From Planotetraspora mira (GTDB lineage Bacteria; Actinomycetota; Actinomycetes; Streptosporangiales; Streptosporangiaceae), in the NCBI RefSeq assembly GCF_016863275.1, contig NZ_BOOO01000016.1, positions 1-64,000 on the forward strand: a DNA stretch of 64,000 nucleotides, read 5' to 3'. Positions within the stretch are counted from its first letter, which is position 1. Each line of letters begins with the position of its first letter. The notes under the pieces are model-generated. The model saw only the letters and a list, made by a program, of their open reading frames with translations, made no database searches and was not told where the DNA came from. Shown one piece after another: positions 11,286-63,557 of this stretch. The translations under genes were made by a program, and so were the position numbers.

Positions 11286-12070
11286 GTCTCCTCCTCGCCC
11301 GGCCGCTCACCGGAGTGGCCGGGGAGCCGGGGAACCGCGGCGATCAGCTCGCGGGTGTAGGCGTCACTCGGCCGGGTGAAGACGGCGTCGGCCCGGCCGC
11401 ACTCCACCACGGCGCCCTCCTTCATGACCACGACCCGGTCGGCGATCGTGGAGACGAGGGCCAGGTCATGGGAGACGAACAACACGGCGAGGCCGCGCTC
11501 GTCGCGCAGGCGACGCAGCACGGCGACGACCTCGGCCTGCACGGTCACATCGAGCGCGCTCGTCGGCTCGTCGGCCAGGATCACTTCCGCGCCGAGCGCC
11601 AGCGCGAGCGCGATGGCGAACCGCTGCGCCTGCCCGCCGGACACCTGGTGCGGATAGCGCCGCAGGATGGCGGGATCGAGCAGCACCGCCGCGACCGCCT
11701 CGTCGGCCCGGCTGCGCGCCTCGCCGCCCTTGACTCCGTGCCGGGCGAGCGCACGGCGCATCAGCGTGCCGAGCCGCATTGTGGGGTTGAGCGCGGCCTG
11801 CGGGCTCTGCATGACCAGAGCGGCCCGGGAGCCGCGGATCCGCAGCAGGTCGGCGGGGGCCGCCGTGAGCACGTCGACGTCGCCGACGCGGATCTCCCCG
11901 GAGACGGCGGCGCCCTCGACGAGGCCGAGCGTGGCGAGCAGCGTCGTCGTCTTGCCCGACCCGCTCTCGCCCACGATGGCCACGCACTCCCCGGCGGCCA
12001 CATCCAGCTCGGGGACGGAGGCGATCAGCCGGTCGCCGATCCTCACGGCGAGGTTCCTGATCCTGATCAT
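11282..12070 (-). CDS. Peptide-type ABC transporter ATP-binding protein (OppD/DppD-like)
   Basis: 262-aa ATPase with Walker A VGESGSGKTTT (~33-43), signature VSGGQAQRFAIALAL and Walker B VILADEPTSALD. It lacks the long C-terminal CxxRCP extension of full-length OppD, so it is a compact version. ATG 12070 overlaps the permease stop by 4 nt. Longer upstream frames (to 12442) lie inside the permease gene and are rejected. Confidence 0.92.
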   Translation of the reverse strand: MIRIRNLAVRIGDRLIASVPELDVAAGECVAIVGESGSGKTTTLLATLGLVEGAAVSGEIRVGDVDVLTAAPADLLRIRGSRAALVMQSPQAALNPTMRLGTLMRRALARHGVKGGEARSRADEAVAAVLLDPAILRRYPHQVSGGQAQRFAIALALALGAEVILADEPTSALDVTVQAEVVAVLRRLRDERGLAVLFVSHDLALVSTIADRVVVMKEGAVVECGRADAVFTRPSDAYTRELIAAVPRLPGHSGERPGEEET

Positions 12071-12945
12071 CGAGCCAGCCTCGCCCTCAGTCCCTCGCCC
12101 AGCACGTTGAAGGCGAAGGCCGTGATGAGGATGGCCACGCCGGGGCAGGTCACCACCCACCAGTCGGTGGTGAACAGCGACTGGCCCTGCTGGACCATGA
12201 GGCCCCATTCGGAGGTCGGCTCGTGGGCCCCGAGACCCAGATAGGACAGGGCGGCCGCGGTGAGGATGACGCCGCCGCCGTCGAGCGAGAGCTGCACGAG
12301 AACCGGCGTCAGGGAGTTCGGCAGGACGTGCCGGAAGACGATGACCGGCGCCGGCACCCCCAGGCAGCGGGCGGAGTCGACGAACCCCCGTGTGGACACC
12401 GACGCCGCCACCGACGCGGTGAGCCTGGCGTACCACGGCCACCAGGTGACCGCGATGGCCACGATCACGGTCGTCACGCTGGGCTGGAGCACCACGGCGA
12501 GGGCGAGCGAGAGCAGCAGCGCCGGGAAGGCGAGGAAGACGTCGGTGACCCGCATGATCACGTCACGGACCCAGCCCCCGGCGTACCCCGCCACGACGCC
12601 GAGGACGACCCCGACGACTCCGGCGATCACCAGCACGGCCACGGCGATCAGCAGCGACGTCCGCGCGCCGTAAAGGACCCGGCTGAGCACGTCGCGGCCG
12701 ACCTGGTCGGTCCCGAACCAGTGGGCTCCGCTGGGCGGCAGCAGCGCCTCGAGTGGATGGGTGGCCGAACCGCCGTCGTCCGGGTACGGCGCGATCAGCG
12801 GGGCCAGCAGCGCGGCGAGCACGATCAGCGCGAGCAGCACCGCCCCCACGGTGGCCAGCCGGTCCATCCCCGCGAGCCCGCGCAGTGCCGTACGGCGAAG
12901 CTGTGGCTGGAGCGTGGGAGCCCCGGCCGGTCCTGAGACGGTCAT
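12067..12945 (-). CDS. Peptide-type ABC transporter permease (DppC-like)
   Basis: 292-aa inner-membrane permease with about six transmembrane segments. The N-terminal helix is AVLLALIVLAALLAPLIA, then the subfamily motif HWFGTDQVGRDVLSRVLYGA and the EAA cytoplasmic loop (CLGVPAPVIVFRHVLPN) that contacts the ATPases. It is linked by 4-nt overlaps on both sides. It forms the translocation pore with the DppB-like permease. Confidence 0.93.
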   Translation of the reverse strand: MTVSGPAGAPTLQPQLRRTALRGLAGMDRLATVGAVLLALIVLAALLAPLIAPYPDDGGSATHPLEALLPPSGAHWFGTDQVGRDVLSRVLYGARTSLLIAVAVLVIAGVVGVVLGVVAGYAGGWVRDVIMRVTDVFLAFPALLLSLALAVVLQPSVTTVIVAIAVTWWPWYARLTASVAASVSTRGFVDSARCLGVPAPVIVFRHVLPNSLTPVLVQLSLDGGGVILTAAALSYLGLGAHEPTSEWGLMVQQGQSLFTTDWWVVTCPGVAILITAFAFNVLGEGLRARLAR

Positions 12946-13958
12946 CGCGACCTCACCCTCGGGTCGATCACGCCTTGGACCAGGTCCACGGCCAGGTTGG
13001 CGACGACGTACAGGATCGCGACGAGCAGGGTGACCCCGGCGATCGCCGGAGTGTCCAGCGAGCGGATGGAGTCGGCGGCGTATCGGCCGAGTCCCGGCCA
13101 GTTGAACACGGCCTCGACGAGGAAGCCGTTCACGATCGAGTACGCGAAGACGAGCGCGATGAGCGACAACACCGGGTTGAGCGCCGGTCGGAGGGCGAAC
13201 CGGGTGAGCACCGCCGTCTCGCCGAAGCCGAGGGCCCGTTCCAGCCGGGCGTGGTCACGGGACGACTCCTCGATCAGGGCGGCACGAGTCATCTGGGCGA
13301 TCACACCGGCCGGGTAGGCCGCGATCACGAGAGCCGGCAGCACGAGGTGCGCCAGCGTGCTGCCCAGGATCGGCCAGTTGCCGGTGAACAGCGCGTCCAC
13401 GGCGGTGATGTTGGTGTAGACGTGCAGCGGGCTCGTCGCGTCGAGGTTCGCGTCGTACTCCCCCGCGACGGGGAACCAGCCGAGGCCGCTGGCGAAGAGC
13501 GTCTGCAGGGCCAGAGCGAGCCAGAACACGGGGACGGACACGGCCAGCATCGAGGAGATCCGAATCGACAGATCCGGTAATTTCCCCTTGTAGCGGGCGG
13601 CAGCGATCCCCAGAGGAATCCCCACCACGATCGCGACGACCAGGGCGGCGCCGACCAGTTCCAGGGACGCGGGGAACGCCTGGAACAGGTCGTCGCGGAC
13701 CGGCCGGCGGGTGTGCAGGCTCGTGCCCCAGTCCCCGCCGAGCAGGTCACGCACGTAGCTCCAGAGCTGGACCGGCAGCGAGTCGTTCAGCCCGAACCGA
13801 GCACGCGCCGCGGCGAGCTCCGCCGGCGACGCCCTCGGCCCCGCGTACGCCACGGCGGGATCCCCGGGGACCAGCCGCATGATGACGAACGTGAGGATGA
13901 CCACGCCGGCCACGACCAGGACAGCCTGGCCGAGCCGGCGGGTCAGATAGCGGAGCAT
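12942..13958 (-). CDS. Peptide-type ABC transporter permease (DppB-like)
   Basis: 338-aa permease beginning MLRYLTRRLGQAVLVVAGVV, with the typical PGDPAVAYAGPRAS and DLLGGDWGTSL periplasmic segment and a C-terminal EAA-like loop (GFGETAVLTRFALRPALNPV). Six transmembrane helices are apparent. It starts 3 nt after the stop of the binding-protein gene, so it is tightly coupled. Confidence 0.93.
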   Translation of the reverse strand: MLRYLTRRLGQAVLVVAGVVILTFVIMRLVPGDPAVAYAGPRASPAELAAARARFGLNDSLPVQLWSYVRDLLGGDWGTSLHTRRPVRDDLFQAFPASLELVGAALVVAIVVGIPLGIAAARYKGKLPDLSIRISSMLAVSVPVFWLALALQTLFASGLGWFPVAGEYDANLDATSPLHVYTNITAVDALFTGNWPILGSTLAHLVLPALVIAAYPAGVIAQMTRAALIEESSRDHARLERALGFGETAVLTRFALRPALNPVLSLIALVFAYSIVNGFLVEAVFNWPGLGRYAADSIRSLDTPAIAGVTLLVAILYVVANLAVDLVQGVIDPRVRSR

Positions 13959-13961
13959 GCC

Positions 13962-15578
13962 TCAGGCACCGGGCTTGAGGTCGTAGACGAACACCACGTT
14001 GGGGTAGGCGGGGTTGTCCACGTACCCCTGAACCGACTTGGCGAAGGCCCGCTGGTAGTTCTGCACGTACGGCACCGCGACGGCGGCCTCCTGGCCGATG
14101 ATCTTCGACTGCAGGTCGGCGTACGCCGCCTCCGCCCCCGCCTTGTCGATCGCGGTGAGCTCGGGCAGCTTGTCGATCTCCTTGTCGATCCCGTCGTTCT
14201 TCATGTAGGAGAGGTTGAAGGAGATGGGGTCCGCGCTGCGGAAGACGTTCACGAACCACGAGTAGGCGTCGGCGTAGTCCGGATACCAGTACATGATGAA
14301 GATGTCCTGGCGCTTGGACGTGTCCTTCGACTTGCCCTGGTCCCACTGGGTGGTCCACTGCAGCGGCTTGGCCGTCAGCTTGACGTTGAGCTTGTCGAGC
14401 GCCGACGTCAGCAGGGTGACAAGCACCTCCTGGTCGCTGTCGCCCTGGGCGTAGGTCAGGGTGAGGTCGAGCGGCTTGCCGCCCGGCCCGTAACCGGCCT
14501 CCTTCAGCAGCGCCTCGGCGCCCGGGAGGTCCTGCTTGGGCGCCTGCCCCGGCGTGAAGCCGAGCAGGCCGTCGGGCACCAGACCACTGGCCTGCACGCC
14601 GGCGCCCTTCAGCGCGGCGACGAGACCGTCGTAGTCGATGGCCTTCTGCACCGCCTGGCGCAGCTTGACGTCCTTGAGCGGGCCGCTCTCGGTGTTGAAC
14701 AGCGCCAGCAGGTTCTGGAACGAGGGCGTCTGCGAGGTCTGGACGTTCGCGGTGCCGCTCGCCTGCTGGAACAGCTGCGAGTTCAGTCGCTGGACGAAGC
14801 TCACCTCACCGCGCTGCAGCAACTGCCACGCGGTCGTGAGCTCCGGGGTCACCCTGTAGGAGATCTTGGAGTAGTGGGCGCCGCTCCAGCCGCCCCAGTA
14901 GCCGTCGAACTTCTTCAGCGTGAGCTCGGTCTCCTGGCCCTTCTGCCACGAGTCGATCGTGTACGGGCCCGAGCCGGCGTCGTGTCCCTCGTTGAACCAC
15001 TTCGCCAGGTCACCCGTGGCGGCGGTGGTGTCGTAGATGTACGAGGCGTATCCGGCGGAGGCGACCAGGTCGAGCGCCGTCGGGTACTTGAGCGTGAACA
15101 CCAGGGTGGTGGCGTCCTTGGCCTCGATCTTGTCGACCGCGCCCCAGATGTAGGCGGCGCCCTGCCCGACCTTCATGGTGCGCTCGATGGAGGCCTTCGC
15201 CGCGGCGGCGTCGAGCGGCTTGCCGGTGTGGAACGTCACCCCCGGCCGCAGGGTGAAGGTCCACTGCTTGCCGTCCGGCGTGCTGGTCCAGGACGTCGCG
15301 AGCCGCGGCTCCGCCTTCTTGGTCTGCGGGTTGTACCTGGTCAGCGACTCATAGACGTTCTCCATCGCGATGATCTCGTTGGAGTACGAGCTCGCGGGGT
15401 CCCAGTCCGTGACGACGTCGAGGTTCGGGACATATACGAAGGTGGCGTCAGCCGCGCTCTGAGACGTGCCCGGCTGCGGGGAGTCTTCGGTGCCGCGGAC
15501 CTTGCCACCCCCGCACGCGGAGGTGAAGGCCACGACGGCCACGGCTCCCGCCGCGAGCAGACGCTTGTGCCAGCGCAT
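13962..15578 (-). CDS. Peptide-type ABC transporter substrate-binding lipoprotein (operon copy)
   Basis: 538-aa SBP_bac_5 lipoprotein. Its signal peptide (MRWHKRLLAAGAVAVVAF) ends in the lipobox TSAC, followed by GGG and a flexible linker. AAAGGAA lies ~10 nt before ATG 15578; the long upstream extension of the frame is shadow sequence. It is the dedicated binding protein of the adjacent importer and a close paralogue of the orphan at 949-2544 (shared DWDPA-SYSNE, GAGSGPYT-like and PDYADAYSWF segments). Its position between hyuA and the permeases indicates that the transporter feeds the hydantoinase-type enzymes. Confidence 0.93.
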   Translation of the reverse strand: MRWHKRLLAAGAVAVVAFTSACGGGKVRGTEDSPQPGTSQSAADATFVYVPNLDVVTDWDPASSYSNEIIAMENVYESLTRYNPQTKKAEPRLATSWTSTPDGKQWTFTLRPGVTFHTGKPLDAAAAKASIERTMKVGQGAAYIWGAVDKIEAKDATTLVFTLKYPTALDLVASAGYASYIYDTTAATGDLAKWFNEGHDAGSGPYTIDSWQKGQETELTLKKFDGYWGGWSGAHYSKISYRVTPELTTAWQLLQRGEVSFVQRLNSQLFQQASGTANVQTSQTPSFQNLLALFNTESGPLKDVKLRQAVQKAIDYDGLVAALKGAGVQASGLVPDGLLGFTPGQAPKQDLPGAEALLKEAGYGPGGKPLDLTLTYAQGDSDQEVLVTLLTSALDKLNVKLTAKPLQWTTQWDQGKSKDTSKRQDIFIMYWYPDYADAYSWFVNVFRSADPISFNLSYMKNDGIDKEIDKLPELTAIDKAGAEAAYADLQSKIIGQEAAVAVPYVQNYQRAFAKSVQGYVDNPAYPNVVFVYDLKPGA

Positions 15579-15607
15579 TTGTGGGGGTTCCTTTCGTTTC
15601 CACCGGC

Positions 15608-17158
15608 CTACCGGCTGAGTGGACCGGCAGCCTTTACCTGCAGGCGCACAGCGGGCTCCGGCAGGTAGCTGAGGGGGATCTCGCTGAGCTCCACAATCTG
15701 GACCGACGCCGGATCGGCCCCGGCGGCGACGGCCCTCGCGGCCGCCTCCTCCTTGGCTTTCTCGATCAAGGCAGCCCGGGCGTTTCCGTTTCCGGTCGGC
15801 ACGATCGTTTCGAGCCGGCCACTCGCGAGCGCGATCGCCGCGCCGACCGCGTTGGCGACCTCCGCGTGGCGCGGCCGGATCACCTCGCTCGCCCCCGGAA
15901 TGCGTCCCGCCAGCAACAACGCGCCCCCGCCCACCGCGATGAGCGGCCGGTCGGCCTTCCCCAGCGCCACGCGGTCGACCGCGTCCGCGACCAGTTCGTC
16001 GGCCCGCGCCACGGCCTCCGCCAGCCGGACCCGCCACTGGTCGGGAACGCCGTGCGTGCCGACGGTCCCCCTGCCCGCGGCCACCGCGGCGTCGGTCATC
16101 GTGGGCGTCGGCCCTCCGAAGACCAGTGCCTCCCGGCCGATCCGGTAGCCCACCGAGCGGGGCTCCGCGCCGACCATCGTGCCCCCGCCGAGGGCGATCG
16201 ACAGGATGTCGGGCATCCGGAAGTTGGTCGTGACGCCGCCGATCTCCACGGCCGCGGCGGACTCCCGGGGGAACCCGCCCACGAGGACACCGAGATCCGT
16301 CGAGGTGCCGCCGACGTCGGCGACGATCGCGTCCTCCACGCCGGACAGGTAGGCCGCTCCCCGCAGGGAGTTGGCCGGCCCCGAGCCGATGGTCAGAACG
16401 GGATAGCGGGCCGCGTAGTCGACGGCCATCAGCGTGCCGTCGTTCTGCGCGAAGAACGTCTCCACCTTCAGCCCGCGCGAGTCCAGCGCGTCCTGGAGCG
16501 CGGTGGTGACGTCACGCGCGACGCCGTACAGGGCGGCGTTGAGCACCGTGGCGTTCTCACGCTCGAGCAGCCCCAGCGAGCCGATCTCGTGGCTCAGACT
16601 GACCGCGACGTCACCGAGCTCGGCCCGGATTATCTCGGCGACCTGGTTCTCCTGGTCCGCGCTGCCCGGGCTGAAGACCCCCGCGACGGCGACGGCGTCG
16701 GCCTCGCTCCCCACGTCGGCGAGGAAGCGCTTGACCGCGTCCGTGTCGAGCGGGGCGATCGGCCGCCCGTCGACGAAGTGGCCGCCGCGCACGATCGCCG
16801 CGCCCGCCGCCACCACGTCCCGCAGATCGGCGGGCCAGTCGCTCAGCGGAGGCACGGACGTCGTCGCCGGAAGACCGAGCCGCAGCACGGCGACCCGCCC
16901 GAGCGACCGGCGCTCCAGGATGGCGTTGGTGGCGTGGGTGGTGCCCAGCATGACGCGGGTCACCAGCGAGGGGTCGTCGAGCTCGGCGAGGACGGCGTCA
17001 AGCGCGGCGCGCAGGCCCTCGGTCACATCGGGACTGGTCGGCCGCTTGGCGGTCGCCACGACACTGTCGGTCTCGTCGAGCACCACGGCGTCGGTGTTCG
17101 TGCCGCCCACGTCGATCCCGACGCGGAGGCGACGGCGCTGGTCAGGTCGCTCGCTCAT
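15608..17158 (-). CDS. Hydantoinase/oxoprolinase family protein (short form)
   Basis: 516-aa HyuA-related protein with phosphate loop RVGIDVGGTNTDAVVLDE, LGTTHATNAILERR, DVGGTSTDLGVLVGG and IALGGGTMVGAEPRS. It is ~150 residues shorter than the copy at 6874-8877 because it lacks the C-terminal domain, as is normal for HyuA-like proteins paired with DUF917. ATG 17158 overlaps the DUF917 stop as ATGA. The two HyuA-type proteins in one operon may act on successive or alternative substrates (inference). Confidence 0.88.
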   Translation of the reverse strand: MSERPDQRRRLRVGIDVGGTNTDAVVLDETDSVVATAKRPTSPDVTEGLRAALDAVLAELDDPSLVTRVMLGTTHATNAILERRSLGRVAVLRLGLPATTSVPPLSDWPADLRDVVAAGAAIVRGGHFVDGRPIAPLDTDAVKRFLADVGSEADAVAVAGVFSPGSADQENQVAEIIRAELGDVAVSLSHEIGSLGLLERENATVLNAALYGVARDVTTALQDALDSRGLKVETFFAQNDGTLMAVDYAARYPVLTIGSGPANSLRGAAYLSGVEDAIVADVGGTSTDLGVLVGGFPRESAAAVEIGGVTTNFRMPDILSIALGGGTMVGAEPRSVGYRIGREALVFGGPTPTMTDAAVAAGRGTVGTHGVPDQWRVRLAEAVARADELVADAVDRVALGKADRPLIAVGGGALLLAGRIPGASEVIRPRHAEVANAVGAAIALASGRLETIVPTGNGNARAALIEKAKEEAAARAVAAGADPASVQIVELSEIPLSYLPEPAVRLQVKAAGPLSR

Positions 17159-18373: not shown

Positions 18374-18447
18374 TAGCGGGGACAGGATTTGAACCTGCGA
18401 CCTCTGGGTTATGAGCCCAGCGAGCTACCGAGCTGCTCCACCCCGCG
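18374..18447 (-). tRNA. tRNA-fMet (CAT), copy 1
   Basis: Initiator tRNA, 74 nt without encoded CCA. On the minus strand it begins CGCGGGGTGGAGCAG, has anticodon stem CTGGG/CCCAG with loop CTCATAA (anticodon CAT), and T-arm GGTTCAAATCC. The unpaired first base pair (C1 against T72) and the three G:C pairs of the anticodon stem are initiator hallmarks. Confidence 0.95.
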
Positions 18448-18651: not shown

Positions 18652-18725
18652 TAGCGGGGACAGGATTTGAACCTGCGACCTCTGGGTTATGAGCCCAGCG
18701 AGCTACCGAGCTGCTCCACCCCGCG
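18652..18725 (-). tRNA. tRNA-fMet (CAT), copy 2
   Basis: Base-for-base identical to copy 1 over all 74 nt. Its spacer, promoter and terminator differ, so the copies are independent transcription units 278 nt apart. Confidence 0.95.
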
Positions 18726-58356: not shown

Positions 58357-59535
58357 TCAGTAGGTCGGCAGGCTGGGGTCGATGGTCTTGATCCAGCTCA
58401 GGACGCCGCCGCCGACGTGGACGGCGTCGGAGAAGCCGGCGCTCTTGAGGACCGCCAGGACCTCCGCGGAACGGCCACCCGACTTGCAGTGCACGACGAT
58501 CTTCTTGTCCTGCGGCAGGCCCTCCAGCGCGGATCCGTTCAGGAACTCGCCCTTGGGGATCAGCACGGCGCCGGGGATGTTGACGATCTCGTACTCGTTC
58601 TGCTCCCGGACGTCGATCAGGTAGATGTCGTCGCCCCGGTCCTGCATGTCCTTGAGCTCCGCCGCCGTGATGGTCGAGCCCGCGGCGGCCTGCTGCGCCT
58701 CGTCGGAGACCGTGCCGCAGAACGCCTCGTAGTCGATCAGCTCGGTGATCGAGGGGTTCTTGCCGCACAGCGGGCACTCCGGGTCCTTGCGGACCTTGAC
58801 GTCGCGGTACTTCATCTCCAGCGCGTCATAGATCATCAGGCGGCCGACGAGAGGGTCGCCGATGCCGGTGATGAGCTTGATGGCCTCGTTGACCTGGATG
58901 GAGCCGATCGAGGCGCACAGCACCCCGAGGACGCCGCCCTCGGCGCAGCTCGGCACCATGCCGGGAGGCGGGGGCTCCGGGTAGAGGCAGCGGTAGCAGG
59001 GGCCGTGCTCGGACCAGAACACGCTCGCCTGGCCGTCGAAGCGGTAGATCGAGCCCCAGACGTACGGCTTGTTGAGGAGGACGGCCGCGTCGTTCACCAT
59101 GTAGCGGGTGGCGAAGTTGTCCGTCCCGTCCACGATCAGGTCGTAGCCCGAGAAGATGTCCATCACGTTGTCCGTCGTGAGGGCCACGTTGTGGATCACC
59201 ACGTTGACGTTCGGGTTGACCTCGCGGACGCTGGCCGCGGCCGACTCCGCCTTGAGGCGGCCGACGTCGGACTGGCCATGGATGATCTGGCGCTGCAGGT
59301 TCGACTCGTCCACGATGTCGAAGTCGACGATGCCGAGGGTTCCCACCCCGGCCGCGGCGAGGTACAGCAGGGCGGGTGAGCCCAGACCGCCCGCGCCCAC
59401 ACACAGGACCTTGGCGTTCTTGAGCCGCTTCTGCCCCGCCATGCCCACGTCAGGGATGATCAGGTGGCGTGAGTAGCGGCGCACCTCGTCGACGGTCAGC
59501 TCAGCTGCCGGCTCTACCAGCGGTGGCAACGACAC
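58357..59535 (-). CDS. moeZ: MoeZ/MoeB adenylyltransferase-sulfurtransferase
   Basis: 392-aa fusion of an E1-like adenylation domain and a C-terminal rhodanese domain. It activates and thiolates ubiquitin-like sulfur carriers (MoaD, ThiS, CysO). Features: VLCVGAGGLGSPALLYLAAA, DESNLQRQIIHG, zinc cysteines CYRCLYP and CPLCG, and rhodanese active-site loop VHCKSGGRSAEVL with catalytic Cys. GTG 59535 has GGGAG at 8 nt. Equivalent to M. tuberculosis Rv3206c at the end of the conserved block; it may serve the MoaE encoded at 22.9 kb. Confidence 0.95.
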   Translation of the reverse strand: MSLPPLVEPAAELTVDEVRRYSRHLIIPDVGMAGQKRLKNAKVLCVGAGGLGSPALLYLAAAGVGTLGIVDFDIVDESNLQRQIIHGQSDVGRLKAESAAASVREVNPNVNVVIHNVALTTDNVMDIFSGYDLIVDGTDNFATRYMVNDAAVLLNKPYVWGSIYRFDGQASVFWSEHGPCYRCLYPEPPPPGMVPSCAEGGVLGVLCASIGSIQVNEAIKLITGIGDPLVGRLMIYDALEMKYRDVKVRKDPECPLCGKNPSITELIDYEAFCGTVSDEAQQAAAGSTITAAELKDMQDRGDDIYLIDVREQNEYEIVNIPGAVLIPKGEFLNGSALEGLPQDKKIVVHCKSGGRSAEVLAVLKSAGFSDAVHVGGGVLSWIKTIDPSLPTY

Positions 59536-59633: not shown

Positions 59634-60554
59634 TCACGCTGATCGCGCGGCGGACATCCGTGGAGTGGCCGTCTCGGCGATGAGCCGGCGCGCCTCCCTG
59701 GCGACGGCTTCGGGGAACTCCATCTGGGCGACGTGCGCCGCGTTCGCGAGCGTGACGAGCCGGACGTCCGGGAACACACGGCCCGCGCGCAGGGCCATCC
59801 TGGCGTCGACGAGCCGGTCTCGGCGGCCGTAGATGACGAGCGTGGGGGCCGTGACCTGGGCGGCCTGCCGCCACAGGTTGCCTGGCCCGACGCGGAAGTA
59901 CTCGTTCACGATCGCCCGGGCGCAGCCGACCATGGCCGCCGCCGCGTACGGCAGGCCGTCGCGGCGGCGCAACTCCTCCTCCGCCTCACGGAGACGCTGG
60001 GGATGGACCCGGCTCCCGTCGGCGTAACACCAGCTGAGGGTCGCTCGGACGCGCCGGTCGGCGGGGACGCCGTTGAGCTTCCTGATCGCGATCTCGCCCA
60101 GGCGCGGTGCGGCCGACATGGCCACGCGGGCCGGGCCGAACCGGGGCAGCAGGTCGGGCAGGGCCGGAGAGATCAGCGTCAGCGACCTGACGAGGTCGGG
60201 CCGCGTCGCGGCCACCCGGACGGAGACCGCCCCGCCCATGGAGTTGCCGAACAGGTGGACCGGCCTGCCGACGTGCTCGATCACCTTCGCCACCACGCTC
60301 GCGTGGCCGTCCACCGAGTAGTCGCCGTCCGGGGGCTCGGGCGAATAGCCGGCTCCCGGCAGGTCGAGGGCGTGTCCCCTGACGTCGCCCGCGAGTTCGC
60401 CCATGAGATCGGTCCAGTTGGTGGCCGAGCCGGCCAGGCCGTGCACGAACACCGCGGCCTCTCCGGGGCCCTCGGGTGTGGATCTCACGTGGACCCGCGT
60501 ATCGCCCATCTCGATGAGCTCTCCCGGCCACGACGGAATCGGCTCGACACCCAC
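59634..60554 (-). CDS. Alpha/beta hydrolase
   Basis: 306-aa hydrolase: oxyanion motif VFVHGLAGSATNW, ALDLPGAGYS, nucleophile elbow LFGNSMGGAV (Ser in GNSMGG), acid YGRRDRLVD and His in ANAAHVAQMEFP. It resembles esterases or C-C hydrolases of the MhpC/BphD fold. GTG 60554 has GGGGAGG at ~4 nt, so the longer frame to 60668 is rejected. Soluble. Specificity not predictable. Confidence 0.87.
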   Translation of the reverse strand: MGVEPIPSWPGELIEMGDTRVHVRSTPEGPGEAAVFVHGLAGSATNWTDLMGELAGDVRGHALDLPGAGYSPEPPDGDYSVDGHASVVAKVIEHVGRPVHLFGNSMGGAVSVRVAATRPDLVRSLTLISPALPDLLPRFGPARVAMSAAPRLGEIAIRKLNGVPADRRVRATLSWCYADGSRVHPQRLREAEEELRRRDGLPYAAAAMVGCARAIVNEYFRVGPGNLWRQAAQVTAPTLVIYGRRDRLVDARMALRAGRVFPDVRLVTLANAAHVAQMEFPEAVAREARRLIAETATPRMSAARSA

Positions 60555-60691
60555 GCGTCCTCCCCTGTTCGCCTTCTGTTTCGACGATAGCCCCCTGCCG
60601 TACGGCCTTGCCATGGGTCGCGCCCACGCTCGGACGGCCCGCGGCCCGCCGTCATTAACCGGGAACAAAGCCGTGAATATCGCTCATATTG

Positions 60692-60929
60692 GGACATTCT
60701 AAATCCGACATAAATGACATTTCCGATGAAAATGATCAGAAATAGTTCAACGTCGTCAATAAAGAGATAAGCAGATGGCAAAAGCCGCCGATCGCCGTTT
60801 GTCGCTCCGCTGACGCGGAAAACAAGACAATGCAGGGAAGACCCACTAAGGGTCGCCAGAAGAACATTTTCCAAGCTATTTGGACAATGTCAGCGCATAG
60901 GACGTAAGTCCTTTCAAGGGGGAAACGAA
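60692..60929 (+). promoter_or_regulatory. Promoter and structured-looking leader of secreted protein gene 1
   Basis: Strongly A+T-rich compared with the window. The GACAT motif is at 60693, 60707 and 60716, the last two 9 nt apart (TCCGACATAAATGACAT). A ~210-nt leader follows and ends TCCTTTCAAGGGGGA, 6 nt before the ATG. From 60781 onward it aligns column for column with 63181-63329 (offset exactly 2400): shared CGTTTGT, GGAAA, AGACA, GCAGG, AGGG, CAG, ACATT. No known riboswitch class recognised. Confidence 0.65.
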
Positions 60930-61340
60930 ATGCCCAACTTCAAGAGCCTCGTGGGAGTTCTCGCCATCAGCACCGCGCTGACCGGCGGGGCTGTCGCCCT
61001 CGGTACCGCTGTCACCGCCGGCACCGCGAACGCCACCACCGTCATGGGCTGCGGCGGCGGCTGCGGCGGCGGCGGCTGGGGCCGTGGCCACCGGAACCAC
61101 AACCGCAACTGGAACCGGAACCACCAGTGGCAGCACGAGCGTCAGCACCAGCACCAGCGCCAGTACCTGCTGCGCGACTTCACCCTGGTCGTGACGCCCT
61201 TCCAGAAGAGCGACAACGACGCCACCCCGTGGCAGAAGCAGGACACCGACTCCAAGTCGGAGGCTGAGGCCGAGAACGAGAAGAAGTACTACGGCCCGGG
61301 CACGGGCACGGCCGCTCCGGTCGCGCCCTCCATCGGCTAG
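60930..61340 (+). CDS. Secreted His/Asn/Arg/Gln-rich protein 1
   Basis: 136-aa secreted protein. Signal peptide (MPNFKSLVGVLAISTALTGG onward) with cleavage expected after ATANA (~35). The mature part is a Cys/Gly-rich patch (GCGGGCGGGG), then HRNHNRNWNRN and a Gln/His run, then RQYLLRDFTLVVTPFQKSD, PWQKQDTDS and an acidic SEAEAE segment. No known domain. Paralogous to the next two genes. GGGGGA ribosome site. Metal binding or a cell-surface structural role is conceivable from His/Cys content (speculative). Confidence 0.85.
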   Translation: MPNFKSLVGVLAISTALTGGAVALGTAVTAGTANATTVMGCGGGCGGGGWGRGHRNHNRNWNRNHQWQHERQHQHQRQYLLRDFTLVVTPFQKSDNDATPWQKQDTDSKSEAEAENEKKYYGPGTGTAAPVAPSIG

Positions 61341-61640
61341 TACGTCGCCGATTCGCGCGGACGTCCTGACCGGATGGTCACGGACGTGAGCATCGAATGA
61401 AAACCATGCCCGTGCTCGCCGGCCGTACGGCTCACCCGTCCGGGGGACGCCATGCCGACGGGCACGGGCATCTTCGGAAAACTCGCGATCGTCACGCGGA
61501 TTTCCTCGGCGCACATTCACCGGCGGCCGTCCGCGATTCGGCGCCCGCATTCCACTTCCTGTTCTCCCTCGCCGAGGCGATTTCACAACGACGTGGAGCC
61601 GCCTTCGTGTGGGAAACGCATAAATCAAAGGGAAAAGCAC
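61341..61640. other. Intergenic region between secreted protein genes 1 and 2
   Basis: 300 bp without a gene. ATGCCCGTGC at 61406-61415 is inverted as GCACGGGCAT at 61462-61471, a possible long-loop terminator. The frame that runs from 61452 into gene 2 has no ribosome site until 61641. Confidence 0.4.
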
Positions 61641-62021
61641 ATGTCCAAGCTCAGCAACATCATGGGCGTTCTCGCCGCCGGCGTCGCGCTGTCGGGCGGG
61701 GCACTCGCCCTCGGCGCCACCTCCGCGAGCGCGTCCGTCGTCATGGGCGGCGTTCCCGCTCCGGCCCCGGCTCCGGTTTCGGTCTCGCGGCCCGTCTGCC
61801 ACAAGTCGGTGTGCGTCCGCGAGGGAAGTCACCACAACCGCAACCACAACTGGAACCACAACCGTCAGCGTCAGCACGCGCGTCAGTTCGAGTTCCAGCG
61901 CCAGTACCTCATGCGCGACTTCTCGCTGATCGTGACGCCGTTCCAGTCGTCCGAGAACGAGGCCACGCCCTGGCAGAAGTCGGACACCGACTCGCACTCC
62001 GAGGCTGAGGCCGAGGACTGA
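61641..62021 (+). CDS. Secreted His/Asn/Arg/Gln-rich protein 2
   Basis: 126-aa paralogue of protein 1. Signal peptide (MSKLSNIMGVLAAGVALSGG...) cleaved after SASA. It has a Pro/Val stretch instead of the Gly/Cys patch, but two cysteines in VCHKSVCVRE. Then come HHNRNHNWNHNRQRQ, FQRQYLMRDFSLIVTPFQSS, ATPWQKSDTDS and the end SEAEAED. AAAGGGA lies 8 nt before ATG 61641. Confidence 0.85.
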   Translation: MSKLSNIMGVLAAGVALSGGALALGATSASASVVMGGVPAPAPAPVSVSRPVCHKSVCVREGSHHNRNHNWNHNRQRQHARQFEFQRQYLMRDFSLIVTPFQSSENEATPWQKSDTDSHSEAEAED

Positions 62022-62248
62022 TACAGGCCCATCGCGTCCTGATCCAGGTCTGAGAGGTGCGGGTGCGTGCTCGCCACGGCTTCATCCGGGGCGGGAGTCG
62101 CTCAGCCGAGAATGCCGTGCTCGCTGACATCGCGGTTCCAGGAATCACGGTCACTGAGCGAGCACAGGCATCTCCCTGACGTCCGCGCACCATGACGCCC
62201 CTCGGGGCGCAGCAATGGGTCAGGCAATCACACGAAAGGGAAAGAGAT
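62022..62248. other. Intergenic region between secreted protein genes 2 and 3
   Basis: 227 bp, no gene. A GACGCCCC/GGGGCG hairpin lies near 62191-62208. It lacks the GACAT promoter repeats seen before genes 1 and 4. Confidence 0.35.
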
Positions 62249-62653
62249 ATGTCCAAGATCGCCAACCTCGTCGGGATCCTCGCCGTCAGCACCGCGCTGA
62301 CCGGTGGGGCCGTCGCGCTCGGCACCGCTGTCACCAGCACGTCCGCGAGCGCCACCACCATCACGGGCTGCGGCGGCGGCGGCTGCGGCGGCTCCGGCTG
62401 GGGCCGCGGGCACCGCAACCACAACCGCAACTGGAACAAGAACCGCGAGTGGCAGCACGCGCGTGAGCACCAGCACCAGCGTCAGCACCTGCTGCGTGAC
62501 TTCTCGCTGATCATCACCCCTTTCCAGAAGTCGGACAACCAGGCCATCCCGCAGCAGAAGCAGGACACCGACTCCAAGTCCAAGGCGGAGGCGGAGGGGT
62601 ACGGCAGGACGCCCGCTCCGGTCGTCACCGTGACGGTCACCGCCACTCCGTAA
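62249..62653 (+). CDS. Secreted His/Asn/Arg/Gln-rich protein 3
   Basis: 134-aa paralogue, closest to protein 1. Signal peptide (MSKIANLVGILAVSTALTGG...) cleaved after SASA. Mature GCGGGGCGGSGWGRG, HRNHNRNWNKN, a Gln/His run, RQHLLRDFSLIITPFQKSD, QKQDTDSKS and a Thr/Val/Pro C-terminus. GAAAGGGAAAGAG precedes ATG 62249, very like gene 2. Four mature-region motifs are conserved across the three proteins while the C-terminal tails differ. Confidence 0.85.
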   Translation: MSKIANLVGILAVSTALTGGAVALGTAVTSTSASATTITGCGGGGCGGSGWGRGHRNHNRNWNKNREWQHAREHQHQRQHLLRDFSLIITPFQKSDNQAIPQQKQDTDSKSKAEAEGYGRTPAPVVTVTVTATP

Positions 62654-62888
62654 CCCGTTTGTCCGACGCACATCCAGTAGTCAGTCAGTCCCGCGCCGGC
62701 GGGGACATCGCGGTTCTGCTGAACCTCGGCCGGCCGGTGAAAACGAAAACCAGGAGAGGACACGACGGCCGGCACGGCCGTACGTGACCGCATGGATCTG
62801 GAACCGCAATCCAGGTGCCTTCTGTCCGCAACGCCTTCCTGGCCGTGTCATACGGCCCAGGGAGTGCATTCCATATCCGACACCGAGC

Positions 62889-62920
62889 GAGGGCTCCGCG
62901 GCATCGTCCGCGGAGCCCTC
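62889..62920 (+). terminator. Hairpin downstream of secreted protein gene 3
   Basis: 13-bp perfect stem GAGGGCTCCGCGG/CCGCGGAGCCCTC with a 6-base loop, followed by CTCCATTTCTCC. It is 235 nt from the stop of gene 3. The outer stem GAGGGCTCCG is shared with the terminator at 63742-63786. Confidence 0.65.
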
Positions 62921-62926
62921 CTCCAT

Positions 62927-63060
62927 TTCTCCGCCGCGCCCGTTCCCCCGGCCCTCATCTTCTCCGCCGCGCCCGTTCCCCCGGCCCTAATCTTCTCCGC
63001 CGCGACCGTCCCCCGGCCCTCATCTTCTCCGTCGCACCCGCTCGCGCGGGCCTCGCCTTC
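62927..63060 (+). repeat. 33-nt tandem repeat array
   Basis: Units of TTCTCCGCCGCGCCCGTTCC plus CCCGGCCCTCATC start at 62927, 62960, 62993 and 63025 (one unit is 32 nt), then degenerate. 33 nt allows an 11-residue repeating peptide in some frames, but no frame has a ribosome site, so I treat it as non-coding. Confidence 0.8.
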
Positions 63061-63108
63061 TTCCCCTGCGCCCGCTCCGTCGGCCCCCATCCCACCTGTC
63101 ATCGCGAT

Positions 63109-63329
63109 CCGAATCGGACATATAAGACATATCCACCGCTATTAGTCTAAGACCGTTCACAGCTAGCCAATAAGCACTTAAAAGCACCAGAACGTCGTTT
63201 GTAGGGTGCCAATGCTGGAAATCTAGACAGCGCAGGACGATAGCCTCTTAGGGGGCTGTCAGCGACATTCATTCTCGTTTCAGAAATTGTCGCGATTAGG
63301 GCAACCGATCCTTTCAAGGGGGACACCCA
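63109..63329 (+). promoter_or_regulatory. Promoter and leader of secreted protein gene 4
   Basis: CCGAATCGGACATATAAGAC, with GACAT at 63117 and 63126 (9 nt apart as in gene 1), starts an A+T-rich ~205-nt leader. It is homologous to 60716-60929 and ends in the same TCCTTTCAAGGGGGA. Conservation of an untranslated leader over this length suggests RNA structure or a regulatory site. Confidence 0.65.
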
Positions 63330-63557
63330 ATGCCCAAGCTCAAGAACGTCATGGCCGGTCTTGCCATCAGCACGGCGCTCGCCGGCGGTGCCATCGCTAT
63401 GGGCGCCACCTCCGCGAGCGCCGCCACCACCGGCTGGGACCACGAGAACCGCTTCCAGGACGAGGACTGCACCAACTTCACCGTCGGTGCCAACAACGCC
63501 TTCGTCCACTTCTCGGAGTTCGACAAGGACTGCAAGCGGTTCCACTGGGGTCGCTAG
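63330..63557 (+). CDS. Small secreted protein 4, two-cysteine
   Basis: 75-aa protein whose signal peptide (MPKLKNVMAGLAISTALAGG...) matches the other three and is cleaved after SASA. The mature ~44 residues are different: WDHENRFQDEDCTNF, an alternating NNAFVHFSEFD and KDCKRFHWGR. Two cysteines could form a disulfide. Its promoter, leader and ribosome site (GGGGGA) are those of gene 1, so only the mature part has been replaced or has diverged. Confidence 0.82.
   Translation: MPKLKNVMAGLAISTALAGGAIAMGATSASAATTGWDHENRFQDEDCTNFTVGANNAFVHFSEFDKDCKRFHWGR

Follow-up and report, generated by a model that had tools for sequence, protein, structure and literature searches.

A tandem family of predicted secreted proteins in Planotetraspora mira with a conserved RDF-TPFQ module and a structured leader RNA

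What could be the role of three small, predicted secreted proteins that are encoded one after the other and resemble each other closely in the arrangement of their motifs? The question is raised by a stretch of 64,000 nucleotides from Planotetraspora mira (contig NZ_BOOO01000016.1, positions 1 to 64,000; hereafter the window), which carries the three genes near its end (genes 1-3, Table 1). An initial annotation made from the letters alone had described a tandem family with a characteristic order of motifs, and the three open reading frames do lie where it placed them, with the motifs in the order described. Our tentative answer, which we hold as the leading one and still short of probable, is that genes 1-3 belong to a family-wide set of leader-headed proteins that assemble outside hyphae or spores. 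Secretion, a coat function and switching by the leader are all features that we infer from sequence; the conserved module, the structure of the leader RNA and the divergence of the proteins behind it are observations, and they are taken up in turn. The initial annotation had recorded neither the structured leader nor the joining of the module to other domains, and these two carry the most weight here.

A conserved module in a tandem gene family

Gene 2 is 61% and gene 3 68% identical to gene 1, and the three genes would form one transcript, read from the leader that stands before gene 1. Gene 4, further downstream and not noted in the initial annotation, encodes the same signal peptide with another mature part, and a fifth gene begins just beyond the window end. 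The two intergenic inverted repeats of the tandem group resemble each other (ATGCC..GTGCTCG). The perfect hairpin downstream of gene 3 is a possible terminator; it carries no T run and is not among the terminator-like sites of a terminator scan. The gap between genes 3 and 4 also holds four imperfect direct copies spaced by 32-33 nt (62911-63066). Far upstream in the window, two tRNA genes with equal scores lie 278 nt apart on the minus strand (18374-18447 and 18652-18725), and AT skew passes from 0.244 to -0.160 between adjacent 2-kb intervals (12001-16000).

Table 1. Features of the locus in window coordinates. Start codons of genes 1-3 (60930, 61641, 62249) are our judgement, and their signal peptides were assigned by sequence inspection.
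Feature	Position	Strand	Basis or description
moeZ, locus landmark	58357..59535	-	NCBIfam PRK07878, E 1.6e-220
alpha/beta hydrolase, locus landmark	59634..60668	-	Pfam Abhydrolase_1, E 1.9e-29
Conserved DNA 5' of leader	60701..60756	+	putatively promoter-like, by position
Leader of gene 1 (P1, P2, P4, P5, P6)	60757..60931	+	covariance models R1 and R2 (in the training sets of both); covariation; fold z -2.08
Gene 1	60930..61340	+	136 aa, predicted secreted, RDF-TPFQ core
Core module of gene 1, 49 residues	61101..61247	+	profile search E 4.2e-29 (itself a row of the searching profile)
Intergenic inverted repeat, gap gene 1/gene 2	61406..61471	+	18-nt arms
Gene 2	61641..62021	+	126 aa, Pro/Val patch with two Cys, RDF-TPFQ core
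Core module of gene 2, 49 residues	61842..61988	+	profile search E 3.1e-27
Intergenic inverted repeat, gap gene 2/gene 3	62108..62174	+	18-nt arms
Gene 3	62249..62653	+	134 aa, RDF-TPFQ core
Core module of gene 3, 49 residues	62423..62569	+	profile search E 7.1e-26
Perfect 13-bp hairpin 3' of gene 3	62889..62920	+	inverted-repeat scan
Leader of gene 4	63157..63331	+	R1 29.6 bits (63160-63331), R2 70.0 bits (outside the training sets of both)
Gene 4	63330..63557	+	75 aa, signal peptide of genes 1-3, other mature part (FTNFTVGANNAFVHFSEFDKDC)

Genes 1-3 have in common a block of 49 residues, N-x-N-x-N...QHLLRDFTLVVTPFQ, whose internal spacing is fixed and which can be excised from 59 of the 62 family proteins examined; the other three have only the signal peptide in common. 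Residues 1-21 of this core alternate, N or Q occupying 500 of 649 odd versus 24 of 590 even positions. The alternation persists among eight representatives less than 70% identical (63/88 odd versus 5/80 even positions), where none of 20000 shuffles reached the observed value. The segment is followed by LLRDFTLVVTPFQ and then by a P-x-QK-x-DTDS stretch. Across five species, dN/dS of the N/Q segment is 0.24, 0.22 and 0.38 in genes 1, 2 and 3, and outside these segments it ranges from 0.30 to 0.72; the single exception is the Gly/Cys linker of gene 1 (1.48), so that 14 of the 15 segments of genes 1-3 lie below 1.

The initial annotation knew of no domain like the RDF-TPFQ region, and the searches bear it out. 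On genes 1-4, Pfam and NCBIfam gave nothing above cut-off, matches to Syntaxin_2, FeFe hydrogenase and EccA falling short of theirs and being taken as composition artefacts, and a profile of 21 members matched no solved structure among PDB sequences (best E 0.69). We file the proteins as fitting no known family. The structure prediction suggested earlier was run with AlphaFold and gave a model, though no confident fold (mean pLDDT 51.3, pTM 0.16). The two-residue N/Q period suggests an extended strand; AlphaFold places a low-confidence helix there (residues 58-87), which counts against assembly into a coat. Likewise, in a comparison with functional amyloids (cross-beta fibres), the N/Q period speaks for the likeness and the low-confidence helix against it.

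The core is repeated well beyond the window. Paralogues with diverged tails, noted earlier for the tandem group, are numerous, with 13 core copies in the genome of P. mira and 16, 12, 11 and 7 in four other Planotetraspora genomes; such numbers argue that the block is not due to chance. At a threshold of E 0.01 or better, a profile search finds the core in 25 of the 341 genomes of the GTDB family Streptosporangiaceae, representing 6 of its 68 genera, one of which is weakly matched (E 0.006), and homologues in related genomes, whose absence would have undone the proposed family, are therefore present. Among named records the core occurs in Microbispora oryzae, and a diverged relative (22.8 bits) lies in a Microtetraspora niveoalba locus. 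No relatives were found in plasmids, phages or IMG/VR, and a mobile-element reading was dropped on that account.

What stands behind the core varies. Most Planotetraspora copies stop soon after it, and others extend into collagen-like repeats, into a repeat-rich part or into tails rich in Thr and Asn. Outside the genus, the core lies near the N-terminus of longer secreted ORFs. Among ten core proteins compared with Pfam (three from Planotetraspora, seven from other genera), two carry a Beta-lactamase domain (E 3.1e-61 and 7.2e-64), one Exo_endo_phos (1.6e-14), one Collagen above and another below the cut-off, four have no family and one has a disordered repeat only, below cut-off. Conserved and separate, the RDF-TPFQ module is nearly on its own in most Planotetraspora copies and lies ahead of collagen-like, beta-lactamase-fold, nuclease or low-complexity parts in others. 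Because it precedes beta-lactamase-fold, nuclease and collagen-like parts, we read it as an attachment or assembly tag, which would anchor the protein and any cargo behind it. A divergent subgroup (HDINVxLTPSQ; L037, L066, L056 and L074) combines tails rich in Thr and Asn with a hydrophobic C-terminus resembling LALALRLRLALGLGL.

A structured leader RNA outside Rfam

Gene 1 and gene 4 are each preceded by a leader of about 175 nt, which in gene 1 ends at the Shine-Dalgarno stretch and start codon. A sequence profile of the upstream stretches of core genes and their signal-peptide relatives found a region of about 180 nt common to 68 of 92; among the 24 stretches that do not have it, 20 belong to second or third genes of tandem groups, like genes 2 and 3, and one of the four that remain, L097, was recovered afterwards by a covariance model. 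Two such models were built, R1 from 20 leaders and R2 from 64. R1 gave 96 matches in 69 sources, or 94 places once two duplicates between the window and L029 were removed. An ORF passing a loose secreted-protein test follows all 94, and the core follows 55 of them by a motif test and three more by inspection. In the genome of P. mira, R1 and R2 each find 12 leaders, all 12 of which precede family genes. Across the family, R2 detects the leader in at least 120 of 338 genomes, spread over 16 of 68 genera; these are minimum counts, since scoring was limited to eight candidates per genome. The nine leader-positive genomes in a class-wide sample of 394 are all Streptosporangiaceae. Most loci of the secreted set would be headed by one kind of structured leader RNA.

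The evidence for structure is uneven. The helices were drawn manually, with RNAalifold results on subsets and the fold of the gene 1 leader as guides, and their choice is partly our own. RNAalifold returned no pairs on a MAFFT alignment of 53 leaders, which counts against the structure, and a pairwise covariation scan of 20 leaders was abandoned, swamped by clade structure and misalignment. When 95 leaders are aligned by fitting to the model, 79.1% of cells in the 30 model pairs are standard and double changes reach 330 versus 127.9 in shuffled and 61-96 in slid controls. In an alignment of 20 leaders made from sequence only, double changes are again in excess (22 versus 10.1 shuffled) and further pair types are not (23 versus 24.2). 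Covariation is carried by P4, P5 and P6; in P1 the variation is chiefly one-sided, and P2 is paired in 61.7% of cells, and both points count against the leading reading. Folding stability, which needs no alignment, gives a mean z of -2.29 for the 55 best-scoring of the 94 leaders, with 33 of these below -2 and one above 0; for the gene 1 leader (z -2.08), 7 of 200 shuffles are equally stable. The leader is not a coding extension, as an in-frame stop occurs in 120 of the 129 leaders that have a start codon at the usual place. No Rfam 15 family matches positions 60300-63400 at E 2 or better, and five loci of other genera gave seven weak matches, none on a leader. The leader is a structured RNA with covarying helices, outside Rfam, and with conserved secondary structure in the 5' untranslated region it takes its place among structured leader RNAs.

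How the leader might act is suggested by a UCCU ahead of the Shine-Dalgarno site, which has the option of pairing upstream, in P6, or with AGGGG of the ribosome site. Because either pairing is available, we infer translational control by the leader, which could thereby set the expression of coat or display proteins. The UCCU/AGG pattern is present in 104 of 144 leaders (a raw count, with no shuffle control); the 40 leaders that do not have it count against switching.

Could the leader simply be a strong promoter followed by a stable 5' untranslated region, copied together with its gene? The hairpins would then shield the message or hold the start site accessible, and would answer no signal, and the proteins could still be surface proteins. 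This is a serious alternative, possible if on balance doubtful. Some 55 nt of DNA 5' of the leader are also conserved, as first judged by eye, so that part of the conservation may belong to a promoter: of 143 upstream stretches, 104 carry GACAT at -100 to -35 relative to the leader, versus about 7 expected from single-base shuffles. That the conservation continues into promoter-like DNA is what a plain leader would predict, as is the apparent duplication of leader and gene together. However, the covariation of P4, P5 and P6 across genera and the nearly invariant unpaired stretches are both more than a stable hairpin needs.

Divergent mature parts behind a nearly constant leader and signal peptide

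In 20 regions from seven other genera, selected by leader match alone, each of the 46 leaders stands before a small ORF for a predicted secreted protein whose signal peptide is similar, and six earlier loci gave such an ORF behind 7 of 9 leaders. Taken over 144 leaders, 142 have a small secreted ORF, 128 of these with the ATG at one fixed place. The signal peptide is nearly one, and the mature parts are very different, rich in Gly, Cys, His and Asn, with VINNIRV, IRIVIINRNHNHN, NVNINNNNVN and N/W-rich AIGFQDKT types among them. No family scores above its cut-off on gene 4 or on seven leader-borne representatives. Leader and signal peptide are nearly constant and the mature parts diverge. As moeZ is present in 15 of the 20 leader-chosen regions as well as in the window, the arrangement suggests a single ancient locus and additional copies at other sites; among the matches listed, relatives of the alpha/beta hydrolase also adjoin leaders in other genera. 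The N/W-rich family around AIGFQDKT is leader-borne in L092, L093, L094, L095, L078, L110 and L166. Its alignment with gene 4 is confined to the 34-residue signal peptide, and we therefore claim no common mature part. Tandem arrays of leader plus small secreted gene occur at L080:1663-8871 (Microtetraspora niveoalba, eight leaders), L157 (eight) and L158 (six), mostly with the VINNIRV-type end in place of RDF-TPFQ.

The composition of these proteins could also be read as extracellular metal binding by His/Cys-rich mature parts, the leader sensing a metal or a related signal. The mature parts of 53 leader-borne proteins outside the RDF, VINN and N/W groups contain on average 11.8% His and 3.9% Cys, linkers such as GGCGGGCGGG are of this kind, and many leader-borne proteins are so rich in His and Cys that a metal role would suit them equally well. 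Nevertheless, we consider it improbable: in the nine proteins of the N/W-rich group Cys stands at 0.9% and His at 3.6%, the leader is matched by no metal riboswitch of Rfam, and the beta-lactamase-fold and collagen-like cargo do not suggest metal storage. That the genes encode secreted competition factors, with a constant signal peptide and fast-changing active parts, would suit the diversity of the mature parts and the tandem arrays, which reach eight leaders at a single locus (L080, L157), yet it is very unlikely given low-complexity mature parts joined to enzymes and collagen-like stalks and no phage, plasmid or IMG/VR relatives.

We return to proteins that assemble outside hyphae or spores, for which the Gly/Cys linker and the alternating Asn/Gln segment could provide a self-associating or wall-bound layer. 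A bolder version, which we rate as rather unlikely in its entirety, would have a hypervariable coat of the Streptosporangiaceae under a single unrecognised RNA switch: (i), leader and export signal would act as a cassette for new mature parts; (ii), RDF-TPFQ would be a self-assembling display tag, keeping enzymes and collagen-like stalks attached to the surface of spores or hyphae. Whichever reading prevails, the leader RNA shows measurable covariation, has been tallied across genomes, is absent from Rfam and is tied to one class of genes, which makes the regulatory question open to ordinary probing and reporter assays. The module and its gene set offer an entry to the spore and hyphal covering of sporangium-forming actinomycetes outside Streptomyces, and a constant leader and export signal shared, at a single syntenic position, by divergent mature proteins would give a clear example of fast diversification of surface proteins.

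Comparison with known systems

Literature searches, largely of titles and abstract openings, found nothing on this protein family. The leader is like known cis-regulatory RNAs in that it ends at the Shine-Dalgarno site and has nearly invariant unpaired stretches; unlike those of Rfam 15, it is matched by no family.

Chaplins and rodlins of Streptomyces are small secreted proteins of multi-gene families, proposed to form the surface layer of aerial hyphae and spores (PMC3079736, PMC5314377). The present proteins share with them small size, predicted secretion, multi-gene families and a proposed place in such a layer (the rodlins being compared by description). Neither PF03777 (chaplin) nor the curlin repeat of Pfam matches genes 1-4 up to E 1. 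Chaplin domains, which mark a known coat protein, are present in 296 of 338 family genomes; this counts against a coat role and rules out a simple replacement of chaplins. In the genus these domains are gathered in a single ORF of about 630-695 aa, which gives 6-8 matches in each genome, and are not spread over several small genes (G000:C24:27921-29297, with equivalents in G001-G004).

SspA of Actinoplanes missouriensis, another sporangium-forming actinomycete, is described as a putatively disordered spore-surface protein (PMC13293333) that is sortase-dependent (PMC13251363). By description, it resembles our proteins as a disordered secreted protein of such an organism; unlike SspA, genes 1-3 have no sortase motif that we noticed. 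Finally, in the BclA-type exosporium proteins of Bacillus, a short N-terminal domain attaches a collagen-like stalk to the spore surface (PMC10470788). The actinomycete module differs in following a predicted Sec-type signal peptide, and it resembles BclA, by arrangement only, in standing ahead of a collagen-like part.
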